A stretch of DNA of 64,000 nt from Thomasclavelia ramosa DSM 1402 (GTDB lineage: Bacteria > Bacillota_I > Bacilli_A > Erysipelotrichales > Coprobacillaceae), in assembly GCF_014131695.1 (NCBI RefSeq), contig NZ_CP036346.1, positions 62,001-126,000 of the forward strand, in the 5' to 3' direction. Each line of letters opens with the position of its first letter. Within the stretch, counting starts at the first letter, position 1. The position numbers and the translations under genes were made by a program. The notes beneath the pieces are model-generated. The model was not told where the DNA came from. It did no database searches and saw only the letters and a list, made by a program, of their open reading frames with translations. This document shows positions 1-63,438 of the stretch, in pieces.

Positions 1-1226
1 GATATACGACTTTAAAGCGATATGTTATCTATGATTGGGCTAATATACAAATGATAGCAACTACTTTAGCCTTTAAAGTAGGAGAAAAACTTAATGTAAA
101 TTTTAGTCGAGATGAGGAATTGATCAATTCTTTAACCCTCCATTTAGGTCCTACAGTATTTAAACTGCAAAATCAAGTACCGGTTGTTAATCCGAGTTTG
201 ACAGTTATTAAGAAAAATTATCATGAAGTTTTTATAGCATTATTAGAAACAATTGATGAATTATGCTATAAGGAATTAAAAGGAATTAAAGAGGATGATA
301 TAGCTTTTTTAACGCTTCATTTTTGTGCCGCTTTAGAGAGAAAAAATCGTTTTAAAGATGTGTATAATGTTGTAATTGTTTGTGTTCATGGTTTTGGGAC
401 GGCTTCTTTAATGAAGGAGATGATCTGCTCGAGATTTAAAAATATTATTGTGAAGAAAACAGTAACTGAAGAACGGATTTTAAATATAGATCTCAGTAAT
501 ATCGATTTTATTATTTCAAGTATTGATCTACAAATAATGCAGTGTTTGGTTGTTAAAGTCAATGTAATTTTAAAAGAGAGTGATTATCGATTGATTGAAA
601 ATGCTATGGAAAAAATTGTTCATCAAAATATTCAAGAAAGTGATACTTTTATGGATGGAATTTTAAGTATTGTTAAGAGAAACTGCGAGATTGTAAACTA
701 TCAGCAGCTTTTCGATGATTTCAGTGAATATTTTAAAGATTTAGGAATTGATGCAGGAATCAAACTGCAGCCATTATTAAATGAATATTTAACTGCTGAT
801 AAAGTTCTACTATGTGATACGGTCGATCATTGGGAGACTGCAGTCTGCTGTGCCGGACAAATGCTAGTTAAGAGTCAAGATATTGCAGAATGTTATATTA
901 AATCAATGATAGATACGGTGAAAAAATCAGGGTCATATATGGTTATTGATGAAGGAATAGCCCTTATTCATGGAGAAATTGATTATGGGGTTAATCAAAC
1001 ATCAATGAGTCTGTTAATTATTAAAAATGGTGTCAAATTTAATCATGATAAATATGATCCAGTGCATATTATTTTATGTTTAGCGGCTAAAGATAATTAT
1101 ACGCACATGAAAGCATTAAATAATTTTATCAAATTTTTAGAGAATATAAGAAATAATGGGATAGAACGTTATTTTGAACTAGACTATGTTTTAGACCAGA
1201 TTAATGAGGTAAGTAAATATGATTAA
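1..1226 (+). CDS. PTS-regulated transcriptional regulator (PRD-EIIB-EIIA), 3' part
   Basis: C-terminal part of a BglG/MtlR-type regulator. The frame is open to the window edge with no stop, so the first ATG (51) is probably internal. Visible order: a PTS regulation domain (PRD) with histidines in LTLHLGP and LTLHFCAALER, the latter typical of a second PRD; an EIIB-like domain around residues 108-200 of the ATG-51 reading with the cysteine of VIVCVHGFGTAS; and an EIIA (mannitol/fructose type) domain in the last 140 residues with the histidine of IALIHGE. In this family PTS phosphorylation of PRD, EIIB and EIIA sites gates activation of a sugar operon. It overlaps the next gene by 8 bp (ATGATTAA), so it is cotranscribed and translationally coupled. 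The N-terminal DNA- or RNA-binding part lies outside the window, so activator versus antiterminator cannot be decided. Confidence 0.85.
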   Translation, partial: YTTLKRYVIYDWANIQMIATTLAFKVGEKLNVNFSRDEELINSLTLHLGPTVFKLQNQVPVVNPSLTVIKKNYHEVFIALLETIDELCYKELKGIKEDDIAFLTLHFCAALERKNRFKDVYNVVIVCVHGFGTASLMKEMICSRFKNIIVKKTVTEERILNIDLSNIDFIISSIDLQIMQCLVVKVNVILKESDYRLIENAMEKIVHQNIQESDTFMDGILSIVKRNCEIVNYQQLFDDFSEYFKDLGIDAGIKLQPLLNEYLTADKVLLCDTVDHWETAVCCAGQMLVKSQDIAECYIKSMIDTVKKSGSYMVIDEGIALIHGEIDYGVNQTSMSLLIIKNGVKFNHDKYDPVHIILCLAAKDNYTHMKALNNFIKFLENIRNNGIERYFELDYVLDQINEVSKYD

Positions 1227-2367
1227 ATATATAAAAGAGAATTGTGTGGATTTTTATAAAGAGTGCCATGATTGGAAAGAAGCAATTGTCTATGCTGGTT
1301 ATCTATTAGAGAAAAATGGCTATATTGATCACCAGTATATAAATGATATGGTGAATATTATTGAAAAAAATGGCCCCTATATTGTAGTCATGCCAGGGGT
1401 TGCCTTGGCTCACGCAAGACCAAATGGTCATGTGTATCAAAATAGTATTAGCTTAGTAACTTTTAAAAATGGAGTGAAGTTTGGACACTCTGTTAATGAT
1501 CCAGTTCGAGTATTGTTAGCGCTTGCAGCTAAAAGTGATGAGGAGCATTTAAAGCTGTTTCAAGAAGTGGCACTATGTCTAATGGATAGAAAATATTTAC
1601 ATAAAATATTTAATGCCCGTTCTTATCAAGATATTTTAAAGGATAATAAAAATATTGATGCTATTAAAGGGGGACTGATAGTTTCTTGTTATGCTGATTC
1701 AGCAATAAATCCCTATATGGACAATTCTATTGCAATTCAATGCCTGGCTCAAAGTTGTGTTGCTGGAGGAGCTAAGGCGATAAGAACAAATTTAGAACAT
1801 GTAAAGGCAATTGCAGAAGTTGTAGATGTTCCGCTTATTGGTATTAAAAAAATCTATAAAGGAGATGATCCGCTTCATTCTAGTTTTAGAATTACACCAA
1901 CAATGGATGAAGTCGATCAGCTAGTTGCAGCTGGCGTTGATGGTATAGCCATAGATGGCACTCAAAGAGAACGTTATGATGATTTATCATTAGAAGAATT
2001 TGTTAATAAAATAAAAAATAAATATCCAGAGTTATTTGTTATTGCAGATATTTCTACAGTGGAAGAGGGAATCAGAGCATCTAAAGCGGGAGTTGATGCA
2101 GTAGGTACTACTTTATCAGGATACACGCCATATTCTAAAAATCCAATTATATTTGGAACAGTGCCATCACCAGATCCAGATTATGAAATTATTAAAGAGC
2201 TAAAAACAGCCGGAGTATCAAGAGTCATTGCCGAAGGAAGAATTAATGACGGTAGTAAGATGAAGAAATGTATAGAGGCAGGAGCTTTTGCAGTTGTTAT
2301 CGGAACATCCATAAGTGAGCCAGCTAAAATAGTAAAAACAATATTACATGATGCAAAAGAGGGATGA
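1219..2367 (+). CDS. EIIA (Ula/mannitol type)-NanE fusion: PTS phosphocarrier joined to ManNAc-6-P 2-epimerase
   Basis: Two recognisable proteins in one 382-residue frame. Residues 1-145 are a PTS EIIA domain with the phosphorylatable histidine in VALAHARP (His65). Residues about 152-382 are N-acetylmannosamine-6-phosphate 2-epimerase: GLIVSC at the start, FRITPT, AIDGTQRER, IADISTVEEG and the TTLSGYTPYS signature. NanE is normally a free protein of about 230 residues that converts ManNAc-6-P to GlcNAc-6-P. The gene sits between a PTS regulator (8-bp overlap) and EIIB/EIIC genes. I infer that import and phosphorylation deliver ManNAc-6-P or a related amino-sugar phosphate directly to the fused epimerase; the substrate is not proven. 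No internal start with a good ribosome site is obvious between the domains, arguing for a real fusion. Confidence 0.88.
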   Translation: MIKYIKENCVDFYKECHDWKEAIVYAGYLLEKNGYIDHQYINDMVNIIEKNGPYIVVMPGVALAHARPNGHVYQNSISLVTFKNGVKFGHSVNDPVRVLLALAAKSDEEHLKLFQEVALCLMDRKYLHKIFNARSYQDILKDNKNIDAIKGGLIVSCYADSAINPYMDNSIAIQCLAQSCVAGGAKAIRTNLEHVKAIAEVVDVPLIGIKKIYKGDDPLHSSFRITPTMDEVDQLVAAGVDGIAIDGTQRERYDDLSLEEFVNKIKNKYPELFVIADISTVEEGIRASKAGVDAVGTTLSGYTPYSKNPIIFGTVPSPDPDYEIIKELKTAGVSRVIAEGRINDGSKMKKCIEAGAFAVVIGTSISEPAKIVKTILHDAKEG

Positions 2368-2370
2368 AAA

Positions 2371-2667
2371 ATGAAAAGTTTTAAAGTTATCACGGTATGT
2401 GGTGCCGGAGTCGGAACAAGCACTTTGTTAAGAATGAATATTGATAAAACTTTTAAAAAATTTGCTTTACCATTAGAGGTAACAGTTGAGAATAAAGGAT
2501 TATCAATGTCTAAAGGACTAATGTGCGATGCAGTATTTACTTTTGAATCGTTTGCTGATGAATTACGTTCTTGTTATGAGGATGTTATTGTAATCAATAA
2601 TCTAATGGATATGAATGAATTAGAGGAAAAAATAAAAAAATTATTAGAAAAAAAGAATTTATTGTAG
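2371..2667 (+). CDS. PTS EIIB component, ascorbate (UlaB/SgaB) family
   Basis: 98 residues, the usual size of a stand-alone EIIB. The N-terminus carries the phosphocysteine loop VITVCGAGVGTSTLL (Cys10), as in UlaB-type and galactitol-type EIIB proteins. It starts 3 nt after the EIIA-NanE stop and ends 12 nt before EIIC, so it belongs to the same operon. It would take phosphate from the fused EIIA domain and pass it to the sugar bound by EIIC. Confidence 0.88.
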   Translation: MKSFKVITVCGAGVGTSTLLRMNIDKTFKKFALPLEVTVENKGLSMSKGLMCDAVFTFESFADELRSCYEDVIVINNLMDMNELEEKIKKLLEKKNLL

Positions 2668-2679
2668 AGGAGGGAGATT

Positions 2680-3966
2680 ATGTCAGTATTTAAAGTTATT
2701 GTAGATATTTTTCAAAATTATGTGTTTAATCAGCCGTTTATTTTCTTAAGTATTGTTGCGATGATTGGTCTTATTTTACAAAAAAAATCAATAGATAAAA
2801 TTATTTCTGGATCAGTCAAAACGGGAATCGGTTATTTAATTCTAAGTGTAGGAACAAGCACAATCGCAGGCGTAGTTACGCCGATAGCTACGCTGCTGGA
2901 AAAAATTATGGGGATTGAAACAGTTGCAACTGGAATGGGAACAAATGCATTTACTGAACAGTGGGCATCGACGATTGCAATTATTATGGTTATTGGTTTT
3001 TTTATAAATCTAATTTTAGCTAGATTTACACCATTTAAGTACGTGTTTTTAACAGCACATCAAACATATTATTTGATCTTTGTTTATTTAGCTGTAGCTG
3101 TAGAAGTGTTTGCTAATCCAAATAATACGTTAGTCATTATTATTGGTGGTCTACTAACAGGAATCTACTGTACTTTAGCTCCAGCATTGGCCCAGCCTTT
3201 CTTGAGAAAGGTTACCGGCAGTGATGATTTTGCCTATGGTCACACCACAACATTCGGAGTTATTACGGGTTCATTAGTTGGAAATTTATTTAAAAAACAT
3301 AAAAATGAATCGTCTGAAAACATTAATATTAATCCTAAATTAAACTTTTTAAAAGACATTACAGTTTCTACCGCTTTAGTTATGACAATCCTATATATCG
3401 TGGCAGTATGCTTGGCTGGTTTTGATTATGTCGAAGCGAATTTAAGTAATGGACAGCCCGCAATTTTATATGCGATTGTTTCTGGCGTTCAATTTGGAGT
3501 GGGGATTACAATTGTATTGAATGGTGTTTCAATGATGGTTTCAGAGATCACAGAAGCGTTTAAAGGTATTTCTGAAAAAATTGTACCTAATGCAGTACCA
3601 GCATTAGACTGTCCTGTCGTTTTTAACTTTGCTCCAACTGCAGTTATGCTAGGTTTTTTAAGTTGTTTAGGTACAGTTATATTGTGTACGATTATCTTTG
3701 GTGCAATTGGCTGGTATGCTCTGACACCACCGGTTATTACTACCTTTTTTGGAGGTGGACCAGCAGGTGTTTTTGGAAACTCTACAGGAGGCTGGCGTGG
3801 GGCTATTTTAGCTGGAGTCGTTGCTGGACTGTTATTGTCATTTGGACAAGCGTTAACGGTAGGCGTTTTATCAACAACAGTAGCGGACTTTGCTAGATGG
3901 TCAAATGATTTTGATTATTCTGTATTTCCAGCGTTTTTCAAATGGATACTACAGTTGTTTGCTTAA
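2680..3966 (+). CDS. PTS EIIC component, ascorbate (UlaA/SgaT) family
   Basis: 428-residue membrane permease with about ten hydrophobic segments, matching the length and layout of UlaA/SgaT transporters. Family landmarks seen are the N-terminal FNQPFIFLSIVAMIGLILQ, the FKYVFLTAHQTYY stretch, and the C-terminal glycine-rich FGGGPAGVFGNSTGGW. A strong ribosome site (GAGGAGGGAG) precedes the ATG. It is last in the four-gene operon and is followed by a terminator hairpin. The family classically imports ascorbate, but the linked NanE domain and the lack of UlaD/E/F-type genes argue for an amino sugar here (inference). Confidence 0.88.
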   Translation: MSVFKVIVDIFQNYVFNQPFIFLSIVAMIGLILQKKSIDKIISGSVKTGIGYLILSVGTSTIAGVVTPIATLLEKIMGIETVATGMGTNAFTEQWASTIAIIMVIGFFINLILARFTPFKYVFLTAHQTYYLIFVYLAVAVEVFANPNNTLVIIIGGLLTGIYCTLAPALAQPFLRKVTGSDDFAYGHTTTFGVITGSLVGNLFKKHKNESSENININPKLNFLKDITVSTALVMTILYIVAVCLAGFDYVEANLSNGQPAILYAIVSGVQFGVGITIVLNGVSMMVSEITEAFKGISEKIVPNAVPALDCPVVFNFAPTAVMLGFLSCLGTVILCTIIFGAIGWYALTPPVITTFFGGGPAGVFGNSTGGWRGAILAGVVAGLLLSFGQALTVGVLSTTVADFARWSNDFDYSVFPAFFKWILQLFA

Positions 3967-3972
3967 AATTAT

Positions 3973-3995
3973 AAGGGATAAAATTATCCCTTTTT
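3973..3995 (+). terminator. Rho-independent terminator after the PTS operon
   Basis: AAGGGATA / TATCCCTT stem with a very short AT loop followed by five T residues, 7 nt after the EIIC stop codon. Confidence 0.8.
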
Positions 3996-4165: not shown

Positions 4166-4708
4166 ATGATAACAGTTGCTAATAGTGCCGAGTATTTTAT
4201 TAACGAATTTACTCAAGAAATATATGATCAAGTGTTAGATCATGTTGATTTTAAAAGCCTGGAGTGTAGTTGTGGGGCCAAAGGGAGTTTTGTTAAGATT
4301 GGATGTTATCCAAGATTTTATAAAACTGCAACTAATAAAATTTGTATTCGAATCCAGCGTGTGATGTGTAAACACTGTGGAAAAACACATGCAGTTTTTG
4401 TTGAGTGCATGGTACCTTCATCAATGCTTTTGCTGACTACACAAATTGAGATGCTAAGATCTTACTATAATCACCGGTTAGAAGAATTTTTAAGTAGTTA
4501 TCCAACTATTGATCGTCCAAATGCTATTTATGTTATTAAAAATTATGAACGGAAGTGGGTAAATTATCTAAAAAAATCTGGATTTACCCTAAAAAGTAAA
4601 GAAAGAGAGATTCAGAGATATTTCTTTGAAAAATATCAAGTACAATTTTTACAGATGAAATGTTTCTCAAATTCATCCTCGTCACGCCTACTGAACCATT
4701 TGGTTTAG
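4166..4708 (+). CDS. zinc-ribbon protein resembling DUF6431
   Basis: 180 residues with a predicted zinc ribbon: CSC at residues 34-36, Cys47, Cys60 and CKHC at 68-71, embedded in an N-terminal region that I recognise as resembling the DUF6431 family. The C-terminal half is basic and rich in helices, with no catalytic motif. The cysteine arrangement recalls the N-terminal zinc finger of ISL3-type transposases, so a domesticated or truncated transposase fragment is an alternative. Preceded by AAGGGG 9 nt before the ATG. It lies alone between the PTS terminator and the Spo0A region. Function unknown. Confidence 0.55.
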   Translation: MITVANSAEYFINEFTQEIYDQVLDHVDFKSLECSCGAKGSFVKIGCYPRFYKTATNKICIRIQRVMCKHCGKTHAVFVECMVPSSMLLLTTQIEMLRSYYNHRLEEFLSSYPTIDRPNAIYVIKNYERKWVNYLKKSGFTLKSKEREIQRYFFEKYQVQFLQMKCFSNSSSSRLLNHLV

Positions 4709-4959: not shown

Positions 4960-5721
4960 ATGAATAATAAGGCAGGTATTGTGATTTTAACAGAAAATCA
5001 TTTGTTGAAAGAGGAACTGGTCAATAAGATTAGAAGTAATGATCATTATGAAATTATTGCAACTTTTAATGATGGTGGTATATGTGAAGACTATTTAGCT
5101 ACGCATACATGTGATTTACTTGTAATTGATTTAATTTTGACTAATATAGATGGTGCTGGAGTGATTGGGAATATAAGATCTAACAATCCAAAAGCCTTAA
5201 AACATGTTATTTGTATTAGTGATTTTACTAACTCACTAGTATTTGAAATGTTAGAAGGCTTAGCAGTAGATTACTGTTTAAAGAAACCGGTTGATTTAAA
5301 CTATTTTATGGAAATCATTGATCGTATCTTAAAAATTAGATTAAAACATAATTTAGGTATTGACGATTATCATCAAACAGTTCTAAAAAAGGAAATTCAT
5401 GATACGTTTATGAAAGTGGGAATGCCACGACATTTAAAAGGCTATAATTATCTAGTTACAGCAATTGTTTTAGTTTGTGGAAATATTAATCTTTTAGGAG
5501 AAATTACTAAAGAATTATATCCGCGTATTGCTAGAACTTATGGAACAACGGCATCACGAGTTGAACAGTCGATTCGTCATGTTTTAAAATGTACTTGGGA
5601 AAGTGGTTGTCAAGATGAGCTAGAGCAGCTATTTGGATTTCGGGCAAAACGTAAAACATGTAATTCTGAATTTATTTCAACAATTGTAGATGAGTTATTA
5701 TCAAAGTATAAAGGAAGTTAA
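4960..5721 (+). CDS. diverged Spo0A-like response regulator
   Basis: 253 residues with receiver domain (about 5-120) and Spo0A C-terminal DNA-binding domain (about 145-250). The phosphoacceptor is Asp57 (LLVIDLILTN) and the conserved lysine is in CLKKPVD. The acidic pocket that reads D-D in B. subtilis Spo0A and E-E in the neighbouring gene reads Thr11-Glu12 here, so one acidic ligand is lost. The effector domain keeps HLKGYNYL, GTTASRVEQSIRH and CNSEF, but the recognition-helix area differs (VEQSIRHVLKCTW against [13 protein letters not shown]). The only frame-compatible start is ATG 4960 (stop at 4939), which has a poor ribosome site, suggesting low expression. It faces the canonical spo0A tail to tail. 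Confidence 0.85.
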   Translation: MNNKAGIVILTENHLLKEELVNKIRSNDHYEIIATFNDGGICEDYLATHTCDLLVIDLILTNIDGAGVIGNIRSNNPKALKHVICISDFTNSLVFEMLEGLAVDYCLKKPVDLNYFMEIIDRILKIRLKHNLGIDDYHQTVLKKEIHDTFMKVGMPRHLKGYNYLVTAIVLVCGNINLLGEITKELYPRIARTYGTTASRVEQSIRHVLKCTWESGCQDELEQLFGFRAKRKTCNSEFISTIVDELLSKYKGS

Positions 5722-5812: not shown

Positions 5813-5834
5813 GAAAAAAAGAGCTTACGCTCTT
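5813..5834 (-). terminator. Rho-independent terminator of spo0A
   Basis: Read on the minus strand: AAGAGC GTAA GCTCTT followed by a run of seven T. The stem begins inside the spo0A stop codon. Confidence 0.75.
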
Positions 5835-6648
5835 ATAAGTAACTATGACGGCTTGCCGCTTTTGTTTGATGTTCTAGACGAAGTTTATCAGCAATCATTG
5901 CAATAAATTCAGAATTGGTAGGTTTTGATTTAGTTGCACTGACTGTATAACCAAAGATATCATCAATTGCATCAGTATTACCGCGGTTCCAAGCAACTTC
6001 AATAGCATGACGAATGGCACGTTCTACTCTTGAAGCGGTAGTACTGTATTGGCGGGCAATATCTGGATAAAGGACTTTAGTTACTTGACCTAATAATTCG
6101 ATATTATAGTAAGTAGATAGAATTGCAGTTCTTAGGTACATATATCCTTTGATGTGGGCTGGAATCCCAACTTCATGAAGGATATCTGTAATTTCATTTT
6201 CTAACTTAATTTTTTGATATTTTTCAGATTCGTTTTGTGACATACCTTTAATATCTTCTAATGTAACTTTCATTACAGAATTTAAGGTTGTCGCAAAATA
6301 ATTGATATCGAATGGTTGTTTAAAACAATAACTTACATTTAATTTTTCTAATGTTTCACAAATTAATGGATTAGTAAAGCTAGTAATACAAACTACTTTA
6401 TTATAGGCACGACTATTTACTTCCTTAAGTTTATTTAGAACACCGATTCCATCAATGTTGGTAAGCATTAAATCAATAATTAATAAATCACAATTATTAT
6501 TAGATAAATAGTTTAAACAGCTTGTTGCATTATCGCTAGTACCAATAACGGTAAAGTTATTTGTCGCAATTAAACTGTCCTTAATATTATTCAATAAATC
6601 CTTGTTTTCTTCTAAAATGTATACTGTATACTTTTTAACGTCTGTCAT
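5833..6648 (-). CDS. spo0A: sporulation master regulator Spo0A
   Basis: 271 residues counted from ATG 6648, which has AAGGGG 9 nt upstream; a TTG further upstream in frame (6678) lacks such a site. Receiver domain with acidic pocket Glu13-Glu14 and phosphoacceptor Asp59 ([10 protein letters not shown]). The effector domain is close to B. subtilis Spo0[69 protein letters not shown]. In the family, phospho-Spo0A dimers bind TGTCGAA boxes to start sporulation. The classical spoIVB neighbour is absent; the upstream gene is a transglutaminase-like lipoprotein. The intergenic region holds a TGTCGAA box and repeats that may give autoregulation. Confidence 0.96.
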
Positions 6649-6779
6649 CTCTATATTCCCCTTTCGTTTTAGTGACAAAATTTATTATATTTATACAGTA
6701 TAAAAGAGAAAAGGGTTTATTTATAGATAATTAGGGATTTAGTAAAGTAAGGAATTAAGTTCCCTATAACAAGAAAGTT

Positions 6780-8192: not shown

Positions 8193-9692
8193 ATGAAAGA
8201 CAATAAGTTTATTAAATTTATTACTTCTAAGTATTTGATTTTGGCAGTGCAGTTATTCGCAACCGCATTGTTTACATATTTAATCTTTCAATTGGATCTA
8301 GTACCATTAAAATACTTGATTCCAGCGACAGGGGCATTAGGTTTATTAATTATAATTTTCTTCTTTATCATGAGGAGCGGGCAAAAGAAAATTAATCAAG
8401 GTTTAAAAAGCAAGCGTTCAATCGTTACAAAAATTATTAGCTTATTAATGAGTATTTTATTAATGTTCGCATCAAGTTATGTTGTTAGGGGAAATGATTT
8501 TTTTAATACCGTTACTAAAGCAACAACACAAAAATATTTAGTTTCAGTGATTACAATGAAAAATAATAGTGCAACTAAATTAAGTGATCTTGATGGAAAG
8601 AAATTTGGTGTATCTTATCAACATGATACAACGACGATTACTAAAGCAATTGCTGATATGGAAAATGATCTTGGGGAACAAGAAGATATGGTTAAATATG
8701 ATGACTATAGCGGATTGGCCGATGCTCTGTATAAAGGTGAAGTAGATGCTATTATTGTTGGACAAGAATATAAGTCGATGTTGGAAGCAAATCATGATAG
8801 TTTTGATGACGAAACAAAAATTATTAAATCATATGAATATGAATCTAAGTTAAGTGTTACAACTAAACAAACAAATGTAACAGAAAACCCATTTACAATT
8901 TATGTTACTGGAATTGATACATATGGTAGTGTTAGTACCGTAGCTCGAAGTGATGTAAACTTGATTGTTACTGTTAATCCTAAAACAAAACAAATTTTGA
9001 TGACCAGTATTCCGCGTGATTGTGAAATTCAATTGCATAAGAATGGTAAAATGGATAAATTAACTCATACCGGAATCTATGGAACAAGTGAAACAATTAG
9101 TACGATTGAAGATTTCTTAGATGTTGAAATTAATTATTTTGCGAGAACTAATTTTAGTGGAATGACAAATATTGTAGATGCTCTTGGTGGGGTAACAATC
9201 GATTCTGATTATAAATTCACAACATTACATGGTAATTACAACATTGTTAAAGGCGAAAACCAAATGGATGGGGATAAAGCATTATGCTTTGTTCGGGAAA
9301 GATATTCTTTACCAAATGGAGATTTTGACCGTGGTAAAAATCAACAAAAATTATTAAAAGCAATGTTAGAAAAAGCAATGTCACCAAAGATAATCACTAA
9401 TTTTAATAATATTTTGACTGCGATTGAAGGAAGTTTTGAAACTGATATGTCAAGTAAAGAAATTAAGTCGTTATTGAATATGCAGTTAAACGATATGTCG
9501 GATTGGACTGTTTATAATGTTCAAGTAGAAGGTGAAGGTTATAAAACTTCGAAAACTGCATCAATGTATGGGACAGAGGTCTATGTAATGAAACCTTATC
9601 AAAAACAAGTTAAAAAAATTAAGAAGATCATTGATACGGTAGAACAAGGTGGAACTATTTCTGAAGAGGATTTAAAAGGGCTAGGAAACTAA
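8193..9692 (+). CDS. LytR-CpsA-Psr (LCP) family glycopolymer ligase, copy 1
   Basis: 499 residues. Three N-terminal membrane segments (about 12-31, 38-58, 79-97) precede an extracellular accessory domain of about 110 residues (LSDLDGKKFGVSYQHD and DALYKGEVDAIIVGQEYKSM), related in look to solute-binding folds, and then the LCP catalytic domain from about 230. LCP landmarks: SIPRDCEIQLH, NFSGMTNIVDALGGV, CFVRERYSLPNGDFDRGKNQQ, with the arginines and aspartate that bind polyprenyl-pyrophosphate. LCP enzymes transfer teichoic acids or capsular polymers to peptidoglycan; the natural client is the polysaccharide locus in this window. Ribosome site AGGAGG. Closely related to the next gene. Confidence 0.93.
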   Translation: MKDNKFIKFITSKYLILAVQLFATALFTYLIFQLDLVPLKYLIPATGALGLLIIIFFFIMRSGQKKINQGLKSKRSIVTKIISLLMSILLMFASSYVVRGNDFFNTVTKATTQKYLVSVITMKNNSATKLSDLDGKKFGVSYQHDTTTITKAIADMENDLGEQEDMVKYDDYSGLADALYKGEVDAIIVGQEYKSMLEANHDSFDDETKIIKSYEYESKLSVTTKQTNVTENPFTIYVTGIDTYGSVSTVARSDVNLIVTVNPKTKQILMTSIPRDCEIQLHKNGKMDKLTHTGIYGTSETISTIEDFLDVEINYFARTNFSGMTNIVDALGGVTIDSDYKFTTLHGNYNIVKGENQMDGDKALCFVRERYSLPNGDFDRGKNQQKLLKAMLEKAMSPKIITNFNNILTAIEGSFETDMSSKEIKSLLNMQLNDMSDWTVYNVQVEGEGYKTSKTASMYGTEVYVMKPYQKQVKKIKKIIDTVEQGGTISEEDLKGLGN

Positions 9693-9790: not shown

Positions 9791-11299
9791 ATGGCAAAGA
9801 AGAAAAAGAAAAAAGGAATGTTTTCTAAACTTACATCTAAAGGAATTATTTTAACGATACAGTTAATTGCTTCAGCCGTATTCTTAGGATATATTTATGT
9901 ATTGAAAATGTTACCAACTAGGTATTATGCAATTTTAATAATTGTTTTAATAGCATTATTATTGCTTGAAATGATTTGGATTACATCCGGAGCACGAAGA
10001 AAAAGAAGAACAGGAAAAGGCTTTAGAATTTTTATTAGTAAGTTCGTAAGTGTTGCTTTATCTGCTCTATTGATCGTAGGAAGCGTGTATGCTTCACAGG
10101 GTAATAGTTTTTTAAGTAATATTACAAGTGCATTTACACAAACTAGAGTTATTGCAGTATATGCAATGAAGCAAGGAAAAATTAATAAAGTTGAAGATTT
10201 GAAAGGAAAAACAATCGGAGTAGAAAATAAAACTAGTGTATCTAGTATTACCGATGCTTTAGCACAAGTACAAGAAAAAATCGGTAAAGAACCTGAAAAG
10301 AAAAATTATAGTGATTATGCTGATTTAGCAGATGCTCTGTATAAAGGTGAAGTAGATTGTATTGTTGCTGATCAGTCATATTTAGGTGTGTTGGAAACTA
10401 ATCACGAAAGTTTTGAAGATGAAACTAAAGTGGTTTATAAAATGGAAGTTCAAGAAAAATTAGAAGCAGTAACAACAAAGACAGATGTTACTGAAAATCC
10501 TTTTATTGTCTATATAACTGGTATTGATACATATGGTTCAGTTAACACTATCTCTCGTGCGGATGTAAATCTTGTTGTTTGTGTCAATCCATTGGAAAAA
10601 CAAGTATTGATGGTTAGTGTTCCTAGAGATACTCAAGTCAATCTGCATAAAAATGGTAAGATGGATAAAATTACCCATTCAGCAATGTATGGAATTAATG
10701 AGACGATTCAGACACTAGAAGACTTTTTAGATCTAAAAGTCAATTATTATGCAAAAACTAATTTTAGTGGAATTACAAACATTATTGATGCCTTGGGGGG
10801 AGTGGAAGTAGATTCACCGTATGAATTTACAACATTACATGGTAATTATAAGATAAAAAAAGGTGTCAATGAATTAAATGGTGATCAAGCATTATGTTTT
10901 GTTCGGGAACGTTATGCTCTACCATCGGGAGACTTTGATCGTGGTAAAAATCAGCAGCGGTTATTAAAAGCAATGTTGAAAAAAGCAATGTCACCGAAAA
11001 TTATTACTAACTATAGCAATATTTTAGCAGCTGTTGAGGGAAGTTTTGAAACTGATATGTCAAGTGATGATATCAAGTCATTAGTTAATATGCAGTTAGA
11101 TGATATGGCCAATTGGGAAATGTTCAATGTTCAAGTAACTGGTGATGGGGCTATTTCATATGATACATATTCGCAAAAAGGGAAGAAAACATATATTACA
11201 ATCCCTTATAAAAAATCAATTCAAAATATTCGTAAAGTAATTGATAAAATTGAAGCTGGTAAAAAACTTACTGAAGCTGATGTAAAAGGATTAAGTTAG
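9791..11299 (+). CDS. LytR-CpsA-Psr (LCP) family glycopolymer ligase, copy 2
   Basis: 502 residues with the same architecture as copy 1: lysine-rich cytoplasmic start, three membrane segments, accessory domain (VEDLKGKTIGVENKTS, YKGEVDCIVADQSYLG) and LCP domain (VSVPRDTQVNLHKNGKMDK, NFSGITNIIDALGGVEVD, CFVRERYALPSGDFDRGKNQQ). Catalytic residues are kept in both, so neither is a pseudogene. The ribosome site is GGTGAGGTGAGAG. Tandem duplication followed by divergence is evident, and different polymer substrates or growth phases are plausible. A strong terminator starts inside its stop codon. Confidence 0.93.
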   Translation: MAKKKKKKGMFSKLTSKGIILTIQLIASAVFLGYIYVLKMLPTRYYAILIIVLIALLLLEMIWITSGARRKRRTGKGFRIFISKFVSVALSALLIVGSVYASQGNSFLSNITSAFTQTRVIAVYAMKQGKINKVEDLKGKTIGVENKTSVSSITDALAQVQEKIGKEPEKKNYSDYADLADALYKGEVDCIVADQSYLGVLETNHESFEDETKVVYKMEVQEKLEAVTTKTDVTENPFIVYITGIDTYGSVNTISRADVNLVVCVNPLEKQVLMVSVPRDTQVNLHKNGKMDKITHSAMYGINETIQTLEDFLDLKVNYYAKTNFSGITNIIDALGGVEVDSPYEFTTLHGNYKIKKGVNELNGDQALCFVRERYALPSGDFDRGKNQQRLLKAMLKKAMSPKIITNYSNILAAVEGSFETDMSSDDIKSLVNMQLDDMANWEMFNVQVTGDGAISYDTYSQKGKKTYITIPYKKSIQNIRKVIDKIEAGKKLTEADVKGLS

Positions 11300-61589: not shown

Positions 61590-62423
61590 ATGAATAGTTA
61601 TGCTAAAATAAAAGAGGCACAAAGCAGCTATACATCAACTGAAAAGGTTATTGCTAAGTATATTTTGGAAAATGCTGCTGATGTTTTAAAGTGTTCAGCG
61701 CAATCTCTGGGGGAGAAAACGGGTACCTCTGCTGCTGCAATTATTAGATTTTCAAAAAAATTAGGTTATAACGGTTTTAGTGAATTGAAAATGAGTTTAG
61801 CGCAGTCTAAACGTGCTCCTGAAGAAAAAATAGATTTTATTATTGATGAAAATGACGATATCGTAACTTTAGCTGATAAATGTTGTCGTTTAAATATGAA
61901 TACTGTTTTAAAGACATACCAGTTGATCGATACTAATCAATTAGACAATGCAATCAAAAAATTGATTGCTGCTAATACAATATATTTATTTGGTGTCGGT
62001 GGCTCGGCGATTGTCGCACAAGATGTGGAACAAAAGTTAACAAGAATTGGAAAAAAGGTAATCTATAATAAAGACTTACATGTTCAACTAACATTTAGTG
62101 AAAGTATGAATAAAGAGGATGCAGCATTATTTATTAGTTATTCGGGTACTACAAAGGGACTTGTTGAAATTGCTAAAATGATAAAAAACAAAAATGTACC
62201 AATTATATCAATTACTCAATTTAAGCCTAATCCACTTTCGAAATTAAGTGATATTATTTTACAAGTTCCTAATGAAGAAAAGGAAATAAGAATGGGAGCT
62301 ATTTCATCAAGAATCTCATCACTAGTAATGACAGATTTATTATATTATGGTGTATTTAAAAATGATCTAACAGGAAATAAAGATAAGCTTATTGAAACAA
62401 AAAGAATTGTTTCTAAAATATAG
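61590..62423 (+). CDS. RpiR/MurR-family transcriptional regulator
   Basis: 277 residues. N-terminal RpiR helix-turn-helix (about 1-77: STEKVIAKYILENAADVLKC, TSAAAIIRFSKKLGYNGFSE) and a complete SIS domain (about 125-255) with YLFGVGGSAIVAQDVEQKL, FISYSGTTKGLVEIAKMI and IISITQFKPNPLSKLSDIIL. This fits MurR, whose ligand is MurNAc-6-phosphate. It stands 106 bp before murQ, whose promoter bears two GAAAT-type palindromes; those are the likely targets. Confidence 0.9.
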   Translation: MNSYAKIKEAQSSYTSTEKVIAKYILENAADVLKCSAQSLGEKTGTSAAAIIRFSKKLGYNGFSELKMSLAQSKRAPEEKIDFIIDENDDIVTLADKCCRLNMNTVLKTYQLIDTNQLDNAIKKLIAANTIYLFGVGGSAIVAQDVEQKLTRIGKKVIYNKDLHVQLTFSESMNKEDAALFISYSGTTKGLVEIAKMIKNKNVPIISITQFKPNPLSKLSDIILQVPNEEKEIRMGAISSRISSLVMTDLLYYGVFKNDLTGNKDKLIETKRIVSKI

Positions 62424-62507: not shown

Positions 62508-62529
62508 AAATATGGAAGGAGTGGAATGG

Positions 62530-63438
62530 ATGAAATTAAGTCAATTAGATACAGAACAAATTAACAGCAATTCTTTGCACATTGATGAAATGACAACAGA
62601 GGAAATTTTAACGGTTATTAATCAAGAAGATCAAAAAGTAGCAATTGCGGTAAAGGACGTCATACCACAAATTGCAAAAGCTGTTGACTGTATCTATGAA
62701 AAAATGTGTATGGGTGGTAGATTGATTTATATGGGTGCCGGAACATCAGGACGTTTAGGGGTGCTAGATGCATCGGAATGCCCGCCAACATATGGAGTTG
62801 ATCCTACTCTTGTCCAAGGTCTAATCGCTGGTGGTAAGGAAGCATTTACAACCGCAATTGAAGGTGCTGAAGATTCTAAAGAAATAGCAGTTGATGATTT
62901 AAAAAAAATAGAACTTAGTCCATTGGATGTTGTTTGTGGAATAGCTGCTTCGGGAAGAACACCATATGTTGTTGGCGCTCTAGCGTATGCGCGCAAACTA
63001 GGATGTTCAACAATATCAATATGTTGTGTTAAAAACGGAGCAATATCTCAACATGCCCATTTCCCAATCGAAGCAGTTGTTGGCCCTGAAGTTATTACAG
63101 GGTCGACGAGAATGAAGGCTGGTACAGCACAAAAACTAATCCTTAATATGTTATCAACATCTGTAATGATAAAAAAAGGAAAAGTTTATAAAAATTTGAT
63201 GGTTGATGTACAGCCAACAAATGAAAAACTAAGAATTCGAGCTATAAATATTGTTCAGCAAGCTATTAGTGTTGATGAGGGAACTGCAAAAGAATTATTA
63301 ATTGAAGCAGATAACAATGTAAAAATAGCAATTTTAAAGGGTCTAACTAATATGAGTAAAGAAGAATGCCTAAAAGCATTGAAAGATAGTGATGAAAATA
63401 TTAGTCAAACTATAAGAACGATAACTAAAGGAGAATAA
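62530..63438 (+). CDS. murQ: N-acetylmuramic acid 6-phosphate etherase
   Basis: 302 residues from ATG 62530, 8 nt after GGAAGGAG; an ATG at 62512 lies too close to the -10 to be used. SIS-domain etherase with all MurQ landmarks: YMGAGTSGRLGVLDASECPP then TYG, GIAASGRTPYVVGALAYA, GPEVITGSTRMKAGTAQKLI and LNMLST. It splits MurNAc-6-P into GlcNAc-6-P and D-lactate in peptidoglycan recycling. First gene of an operon with a small membrane protein (5-nt gap) and a PTS EIIC. Confidence 0.96.
   Translation: MKLSQLDTEQINSNSLHIDEMTTEEILTVINQEDQKVAIAVKDVIPQIAKAVDCIYEKMCMGGRLIYMGAGTSGRLGVLDASECPPTYGVDPTLVQGLIAGGKEAFTTAIEGAEDSKEIAVDDLKKIELSPLDVVCGIAASGRTPYVVGALAYARKLGCSTISICCVKNGAISQHAHFPIEAVVGPEVITGSTRMKAGTAQKLILNMLSTSVMIKKGKVYKNLMVDVQPTNEKLRIRAINIVQQAISVDEGTAKELLIEADNNVKIAILKGLTNMSKEECLKALKDSDENISQTIRTITKGE

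Follow-up and report, generated by a model that had tools for sequence, protein, structure and literature searches.

A Ula-type phosphotransferase operon with a fused EIIA-NanE-like protein in Thomasclavelia ramosa and its candidate amino sugar substrate

The window analyzed here, 64,000 nucleotides from the single 3.25-Mb contig of the Thomasclavelia ramosa DSM 1402 genome, opens within a phosphotransferase system (PTS) operon in which the phosphocarrier domain EIIA and a domain resembling NanE, the epimerase of N-acetylmannosamine 6-phosphate (ManNAc-6-P), form one protein (Table 1). The original prediction of an EIIA domain with His65 and a complete NanE domain in one frame was confirmed by Pfam, with PF00359 (PTS_EIIA_2) covering residues 4 to 141 of the fusion (E 1.3e-30), the signature VALAHARPN containing His65, and PF04131 (NanE) covering residues 175 to 376 (E 2.3e-52; 177 bits against a cut-off of 27). 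The protein also scored above the NCBIfam threshold for NanE (NF002231, 216 bits; cut-off 189), and Pfam matches likewise bore out the UlaB-like EIIB and UlaA-family EIIC behind the fusion and the PRD-type regulator ahead of it. The regulator gene overlaps the fusion gene by 8 bases, and gaps of 3 and 12 bases separate the fusion from EIIB and EIIB from EIIC, respectively. In L024, a wider stretch that includes the upstream flank and whose base 10001 is window base 1, the whole regulator gene extends 874 bases beyond the upstream edge of the window and encodes a protein of 699 amino acids with an Mga/HTH N terminus, a pair of PRD domains and its own EIIA_2 domain at the C terminus. Just ahead of the window, the same flank contains two SIS/UPF0309 (NagS-type) genes, SIS_A and SIS_B, spanning 2416 to 927 bases before window base 1.

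Table 1. Features of the operon, in window coordinates unless L024 is given
Feature	Coordinates	Strand	Basis
SIS_A, SIS/UPF0309 (NagS-type)	L024 7585-8331		
SIS_B, SIS/UPF0309 (NagS-type)	L024 8331-9074		
PRD-type PTS-dependent regulator, whole gene	L024 9127-11223		
PRD-type PTS-dependent regulator, 3' part	3..1226	+	PF00874, PF00359, PF05043
Fused EIIA-NanE-like protein, 382 amino acids	1219..2367	+	Pfam, NCBIfam; full-length fusion also in two other genomes
EIIA domain (fructose/mannitol/ascorbate type), phospho-acceptor His65	1219..1641	+	PF00359
NanE-like TIM barrel	1642..2364	+	PF04131, residue table, model match to NanE structures
Tyr158, position of SaNanE Gln11	1690..1692	+	Alignment
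Clade-specific longer loop after substrate-site Tyr302, KNPIIFGTVPSPDPD region	2125..2169	+	Alignments A1 and A2; low pLDDT at 303-317
Glu367, position of SaNanE Arg208	2317..2319	+	Alignment; Arg208 role from PMC8482478
EIIB (UlaB-like), P-Cys10	2371..2667	+	PF02302, NF007094
EIIC, UlaA/GAT family, changed substrate pocket	2680..3966	+	PF03611; residue comparison with E. coli UlaA
Terminator-like hairpin, end of operon	3973..3992 (L024 13973-13992)	+	Just after EIIC

An internal start yielding NanE alone, which the original prediction had raised as an objection to itself, is unlikely, as no in-frame ATG, GTG or TTG occurs at residues 123 to 166 of the fusion. Full-length fusions also occur in two Erysipelotrichia genomes (57% and 55% identity), and the one seen here is therefore not a local sequencing error. 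The predicted link between EIIA and the epimerase is thus conserved beyond this genome, as a fusion in these two relatives and as adjacent genes, together with EIIB and EIIC, in three phyla. Across the operon's hosts, EIIA and the NanE-like protein are mostly encoded by adjacent separate genes, as in L047, the nearest full operon, where the two overlap by a few bases (a metagenome-assembled genome, MAG). In a third genome of the relatives' genus (L062 2830-3098; a MAG, to be read with caution), a shortened EIIA remnant with stops accompanies an intact NanE-like gene, which indicates that the EIIA half can decay. A tree test rejected the three fused rows as one clade (p-AU 1.6e-51), and the fusion thus probably arose twice; a single early fusion followed by several later splits would be a less simple history. 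AlphaFold modeled the NanE domain well but EIIA, whose alignment is three sequences deep, poorly, so that the model does not place EIIA relative to NanE; in alignment A2, which included EIIA-only rows, the second EIIA half was out of place, and folding did not draw on A2. A literature text search whose coverage leaves out most subscription journals returned no paper on this operon or fusion.

In a tree of 43 sequences, the NanE-like domains split from NanE as a clade of their own (support 100/97), and we tabulated the residues of 18 NanE-like rows against those of the 25 others. The NanE-like domain shares with NanE (PF04131; S. aureus 6VVA and 7MFS, C. perfringens 4UTW) the TIM barrel, its model matching NanE crystal structures with Z scores of 24.7 to 26.7 (next fold, ~20), and the catalytic site: Arg189, Lys211, Asp277, Tyr302 and Glu339 of the fusion correspond to Arg40, Lys63, Asp124, Tyr149 and Glu180 of S. 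aureus NanE (SaNanE), and the equivalents of Arg40, Lys63, Asp124 and Glu180 are retained in 18/18 NanE-like rows. An active C2 epimerase is therefore expected. The domain differs from NanE, beyond its EIIA fusion and its separate clade, in the residues that would meet the substrate. The Gln11 position holds Tyr in 18/18 NanE-like rows and Gln in 25/25 others; the Arg208 position holds Glu (as here), Met, Ser or Asn throughout the clade, Arg also being absent from 3 of the 25 rows outside it; and in place of the NanE motif V-G-[SG]-A-x-T-R the fusion reads VIGTSISEP. In SaNanE, Gln11 lies at the C1 aldehyde of the substrate and Arg208 contacts its C3 and C4 hydroxyls, and single alanine swaps lower kcat/KM from 13 to 0.46 (Gln11) or 0.04 (Arg208) (PMC8482478). 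Moreover, the clade has an extended loop beside the tyrosine in contact with the acetamide methyl, and residues 303 to 317 of this loop have low pLDDT in the model. With both Gln11 and Arg208 replaced in every member of a separate clade, a different ligand is expected, and ManNAc-6-P specificity is not to be assumed. The fusion to a PTS phosphocarrier and the two changed ligand residues would also suit a barrel that acts as a regulatory or substrate-sensing domain of EIIA instead of an enzyme, but we consider this extremely improbable, given that all five catalytic-site positions are retained in 18/18 sequences from three phyla and that most genomes encode the barrel in a gene of its own, which in four loci (L055, L057, L058 and L063) forms a pair with SIS_A and has no adjacent PTS genes.

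These residues bear directly on the pathway first proposed for the operon, in which ManNAc or a related amino sugar would enter as its 6-phosphate and the tethered domain would be an ordinary ManNAc-6-P 2-epimerase, bypassing NanK. The import of some amino sugar remains attractive, since the NanE-like domain, its NagS-like partners and the presence of NagA are all consistent with an amino-sugar 6-phosphate, whereas ManNAc-6-P specificity does not follow, given the Tyr at Gln11 and the loss of Arg208. Plain ManNAc as the substrate is possible but less likely. In its favor are the retained catalytic residues, the NCBIfam match and the presence of NagA, and ManNAc would probably have to come from outside, as a check of the sialic acid route gave no lyase above the NanA cut-off, a very strict one passed by 1/14 controls, in the 15 host genomes, including this one. 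Against it, the two substrate-contact residues are changed clade-wide at positions where alanine swaps cut the kcat/KM of SaNanE (PMC8482478), a canonical NanE is already present elsewhere in this genome and, in one relative, in the same operon as the NanE-like gene, and the two NagS-type SIS enzymes are left without a role. We therefore regard the plain-ManNAc pathway as unlikely and no longer describe the domain as an ordinary NanE. Nor is the bypass of NanK new in principle. Import of ManNAc by the E. coli PTS ManXYZ bypasses NanK, and the outcome here, ManNAc-6-P made without that kinase, would be the same, although ManXYZ belongs to another permease family and has no fused epimerase.

The EIIB (PF02302) has its phosphorylated cysteine at residue 10, and the EIIC matched PF03611 (E 2e-104) and NF006919 (427 bits; cut-off 380), which places it in the UlaA family. 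We compared its pocket with the ascorbate contacts of E. coli UlaA (PMC6048161), the region of UlaA residues 86 and 87 having no reliable alignment. All 11 EIICs of this operon retain the equivalents of His135, His194, Asp314, Ile358 and Phe362, and all 11 share five replacements at contact positions (Ile136 to Gln, Gln139 to Tyr or Phe, Gln195 to Thr, Arg288 to Ser or Gly and Met410 to Asp), so that the ascorbate contacts are altered in a form that is itself conserved within the operon. Arg288, a contact of ascorbate O3 when UlaA faces inward (PMC6048161), is present in 18/18 other UlaA-family EIICs compared and lost only in the EIICs of this operon, whose pocket would fit a neutral or cationic substrate. 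The system thus resembles the Ula PTS (UlaA/UlaB/UlaC) in its EIIC family, its EIIA and EIIB types and five pocket residues but differs in the five others and in its enzymes, no ulaD, ulaE, ulaF or ulaG ascorbate gene lying between the SIS genes and the terminator. An ordinary ascorbate PTS was rejected on these two grounds. The suggestion that the operon represents a new substrate class for an ascorbate-family EIIC is plausible, since the pocket is not that of ascorbate-specific UlaA, but such a class would not be special to the fusion, as UlaA-family EIICs occur in several other contexts within this order. A recurring operon of PRD regulator, EIIA, EIIB, Ula-type EIIC and one NagS-like SIS gene, with no NanE, was seen at five loci (L074, L078, L082, L086 and L088), and its EIIC pocket is yet another variant (Met or Phe at 136, Trp at 139, Pro at 195 and Gly at 410).

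SIS_A and SIS_B are 26 to 36% identical to NagS (SCO4393), a member of the UPF0309 SIS family that converts N-acetylglucosamine 6-phosphate (GlcNAc-6-P) and, less well, ManNAc-6-P to 6P-chromogen I by acting at C2 and C3 (PMC12680351). The residues essential in NagS (His53, Arg64, Glu94 and Asp179) are common to both systems, being present in all SIS_A and SIS_B/X rows, and Ser119 and Ser121 of NagS are retained in SIS_A and SIS_B. SIS_A, which forms its own clade, differs in having His or Ser at NagS Asn228; SIS_B comes closest to SIS genes from Ula-type PTS operons that lack NanE. The partners may share the GlcNAc-6-P dehydratase activity of NagS. Their chemistry and that of NanE would share a first step, loss of the C2 proton from an open-chain 2-acylamino sugar phosphate, after which the SIS enzyme would act at C3. 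Whereas NagS has been described as limited to Streptomycetaceae, the SIS genes here belong to PTS operons of other phyla. SIS_A was also considered as a general substitute for MurQ and rejected, MurQ being encoded in this genome and in 8/15 hosts.

The resemblance to NagS raises the prospect that the imported amino sugar is itself unsaturated or of furanose type, for example chromogen I, whose five-membered ring resembles ascorbate in shape, with the NagS-type enzymes hydrating the 6-phosphate and the NanE-like domain sorting the C2 epimers. The ligand of UlaA is likewise a 2-ene with a five-membered ring and a C5-C6 side chain of this kind, and NagS-like SIS genes also occur in other Ula-type PTS operons without NanE. 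Moreover, 6P-chromogen I, the product of NagS from both GlcNAc-6-P and ManNAc-6-P, is a hex-2-enofuranose (PMC12680351). NagS has been reported in the dehydration direction only, however, the literature search turned up no source in which chromogen I is known to be abundant in nature, and the EIIC pocket residues differ from those of UlaA. We judge this very improbable.

A single-sequence scan of genome contigs gave no matches, whereas an alignment-based profile scan returned 19 clade members, to be read as at least 19 because two short patterns only were used. The operon parts (SIS, PRD regulator, EIIA, NanE-like, SIS_A, EIIB and EIIC) are conserved in Bacillota, Actinomycetota and Chloroflexota, with hosts in Erysipelotrichales, Lachnospiraceae, Oscillospiraceae, Atopobiaceae and Anaerolineaceae. 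They stand in that order in Lachnospiraceae, Oscillospiraceae, Thermophilibacter (Atopobiaceae) and Pelolinea (Anaerolineaceae), the first SIS gene not being seen in L054, while in the window operon and L047 SIS_A is placed ahead of the regulator instead. Eight other genomes of the window's genus gave no match comparable to the fusion, which suggests that the species probably gained the operon through transfer. At L046 and L051 the NanE-like gene lies near a canonical NanE and a mannose-family PTS, accompanied at L051 by NagB, and in one relative the NanE-like gene, the canonical NanE, the Man-type PTS and NagB share one operon; the presence of both epimerase types in one operon argues for different substrates. 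Between the NanE-like gene and NagB of such an operon (L034 7233-8423, equal to L051 6230-7420) we also observed a half-length ceramidase-like gene (PF04734), whose product might remove the N-acyl group from an amino sugar phosphate. A divergent NanE-like gene is paired with a NagS-like SIS gene at L064 (2615-10203), where the two are served by a non-PTS importer.

These contexts allow for a substrate that lacks nitrogen, the NanE-like and SIS enzymes having shifted to the 6-phosphate of a plain aldose or ketose, as happens in other systems of the UlaA family: UlaA-family PTS of relatives are linked to transketolase-like genes, and L064 pairs its NanE-like gene with an FGGY-like kinase, a family not known to act on amino sugars. 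Yet the NanE mechanism depends on how acidic the C2-H is in a 2-acylamino aldehyde, all catalytic residues are retained, and two relatives place the NanE-like gene beside a canonical NanE and Man-type PTS genes. A nitrogen-free substrate therefore seems to us rather unlikely.

Taken together, these results suggested, with a confidence that we put at about even, a catabolic operon, linked to a PTS, that serves an unusual 2-(acyl)amino-2-deoxy sugar with a probable alteration at C3 or C4 or in its N-acyl group. The loss of Arg208, which reads C3 and C4, and the presence of SIS partners acting at C3 are the two lines that point to these positions. From the domains, the conserved gene order, the retained catalytic residues and the changed substrate residues, we infer the reactions, their order and the substrate as follows. 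The Ula-type EIIC would import the sugar while HPr donates phosphate to His65 of the fused EIIA, from where it would be relayed through Cys10 of EIIB to the terminal (C6) hydroxyl of the sugar. The EIIA-tethered NanE-like domain would then invert C2 of the open-chain 6-phosphate by a Lys/Glu proton shift, as in NanE, and the NagS/MurQ-type SIS enzymes would use this acidic C2-H too, for an elimination or addition at C3. The resulting sugar phosphate, probably GlcNAc-6-P, would drain into the general NagA/NagB route, and the PRD regulator would sense the phosphorylation state of the PTS. NagA scored above its cut-off in 14/15 host genomes, with two copies in this one, so that GlcNAc-6-P can be used. 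Three observations weigh against the amino sugar pathway: the Asn228 deviation means that the reaction of SIS_A may differ from that of NagS; the distant NanE-like gene at L064 has a ribose-type ABC transporter and the FGGY-like kinase as neighbors; and NagA, so widespread that its presence is weak evidence, was not over the cut-off in the L047 host, the MAG with the nearest full operon.

The automatic names "ascorbate PTS" and "ManNAc-6-P epimerase" are probably both wrong for this operon. If an amino sugar is found to be its substrate, the range of the ascorbate/galactitol PTS superfamily would be widened, NagS-like SIS proteins would acquire a role outside Streptomyces, and the fusion would be an example from nature of an enzyme joined to a transporter's phosphocarrier where that transporter produces the enzyme's substrate. 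A bolder version, which we think distinctly improbable, would have a pathway in three phyla import an ascorbate-shaped unsaturated or C3-modified amino sugar, whose 6-phosphate would be converted to GlcNAc-6-P by SIS enzymes of the NagS type together with a novel NanE class, tethered to EIIA in some species; if true, this would be a catabolic use of chemistry so far found only in the GlcNAc-toxicity pathway of Streptomyces.

Elsewhere in the window, MurQ, the N-acetylmuramic acid 6-phosphate etherase, is encoded at 62512-63438 behind an RpiR-type regulator (61590-62423), in a locus for recycling of peptidoglycan sugars. Directly after the PTS operon, a 180-amino-acid open reading frame (4166-4708) has a weak DUF6431 match just under the cut-off and is perhaps a transposase remnant. 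It is followed by paralogous response regulators arranged tail to tail (4960-5721, + strand, and 5833-6678, - strand), whose C-terminal regions look Spo0A-like, and by tandem paralogs of ~500 amino acids (8193-9692 and 9791-11299) that are LytR-CpsA-Psr-like with an extra solute-binding-like stretch.

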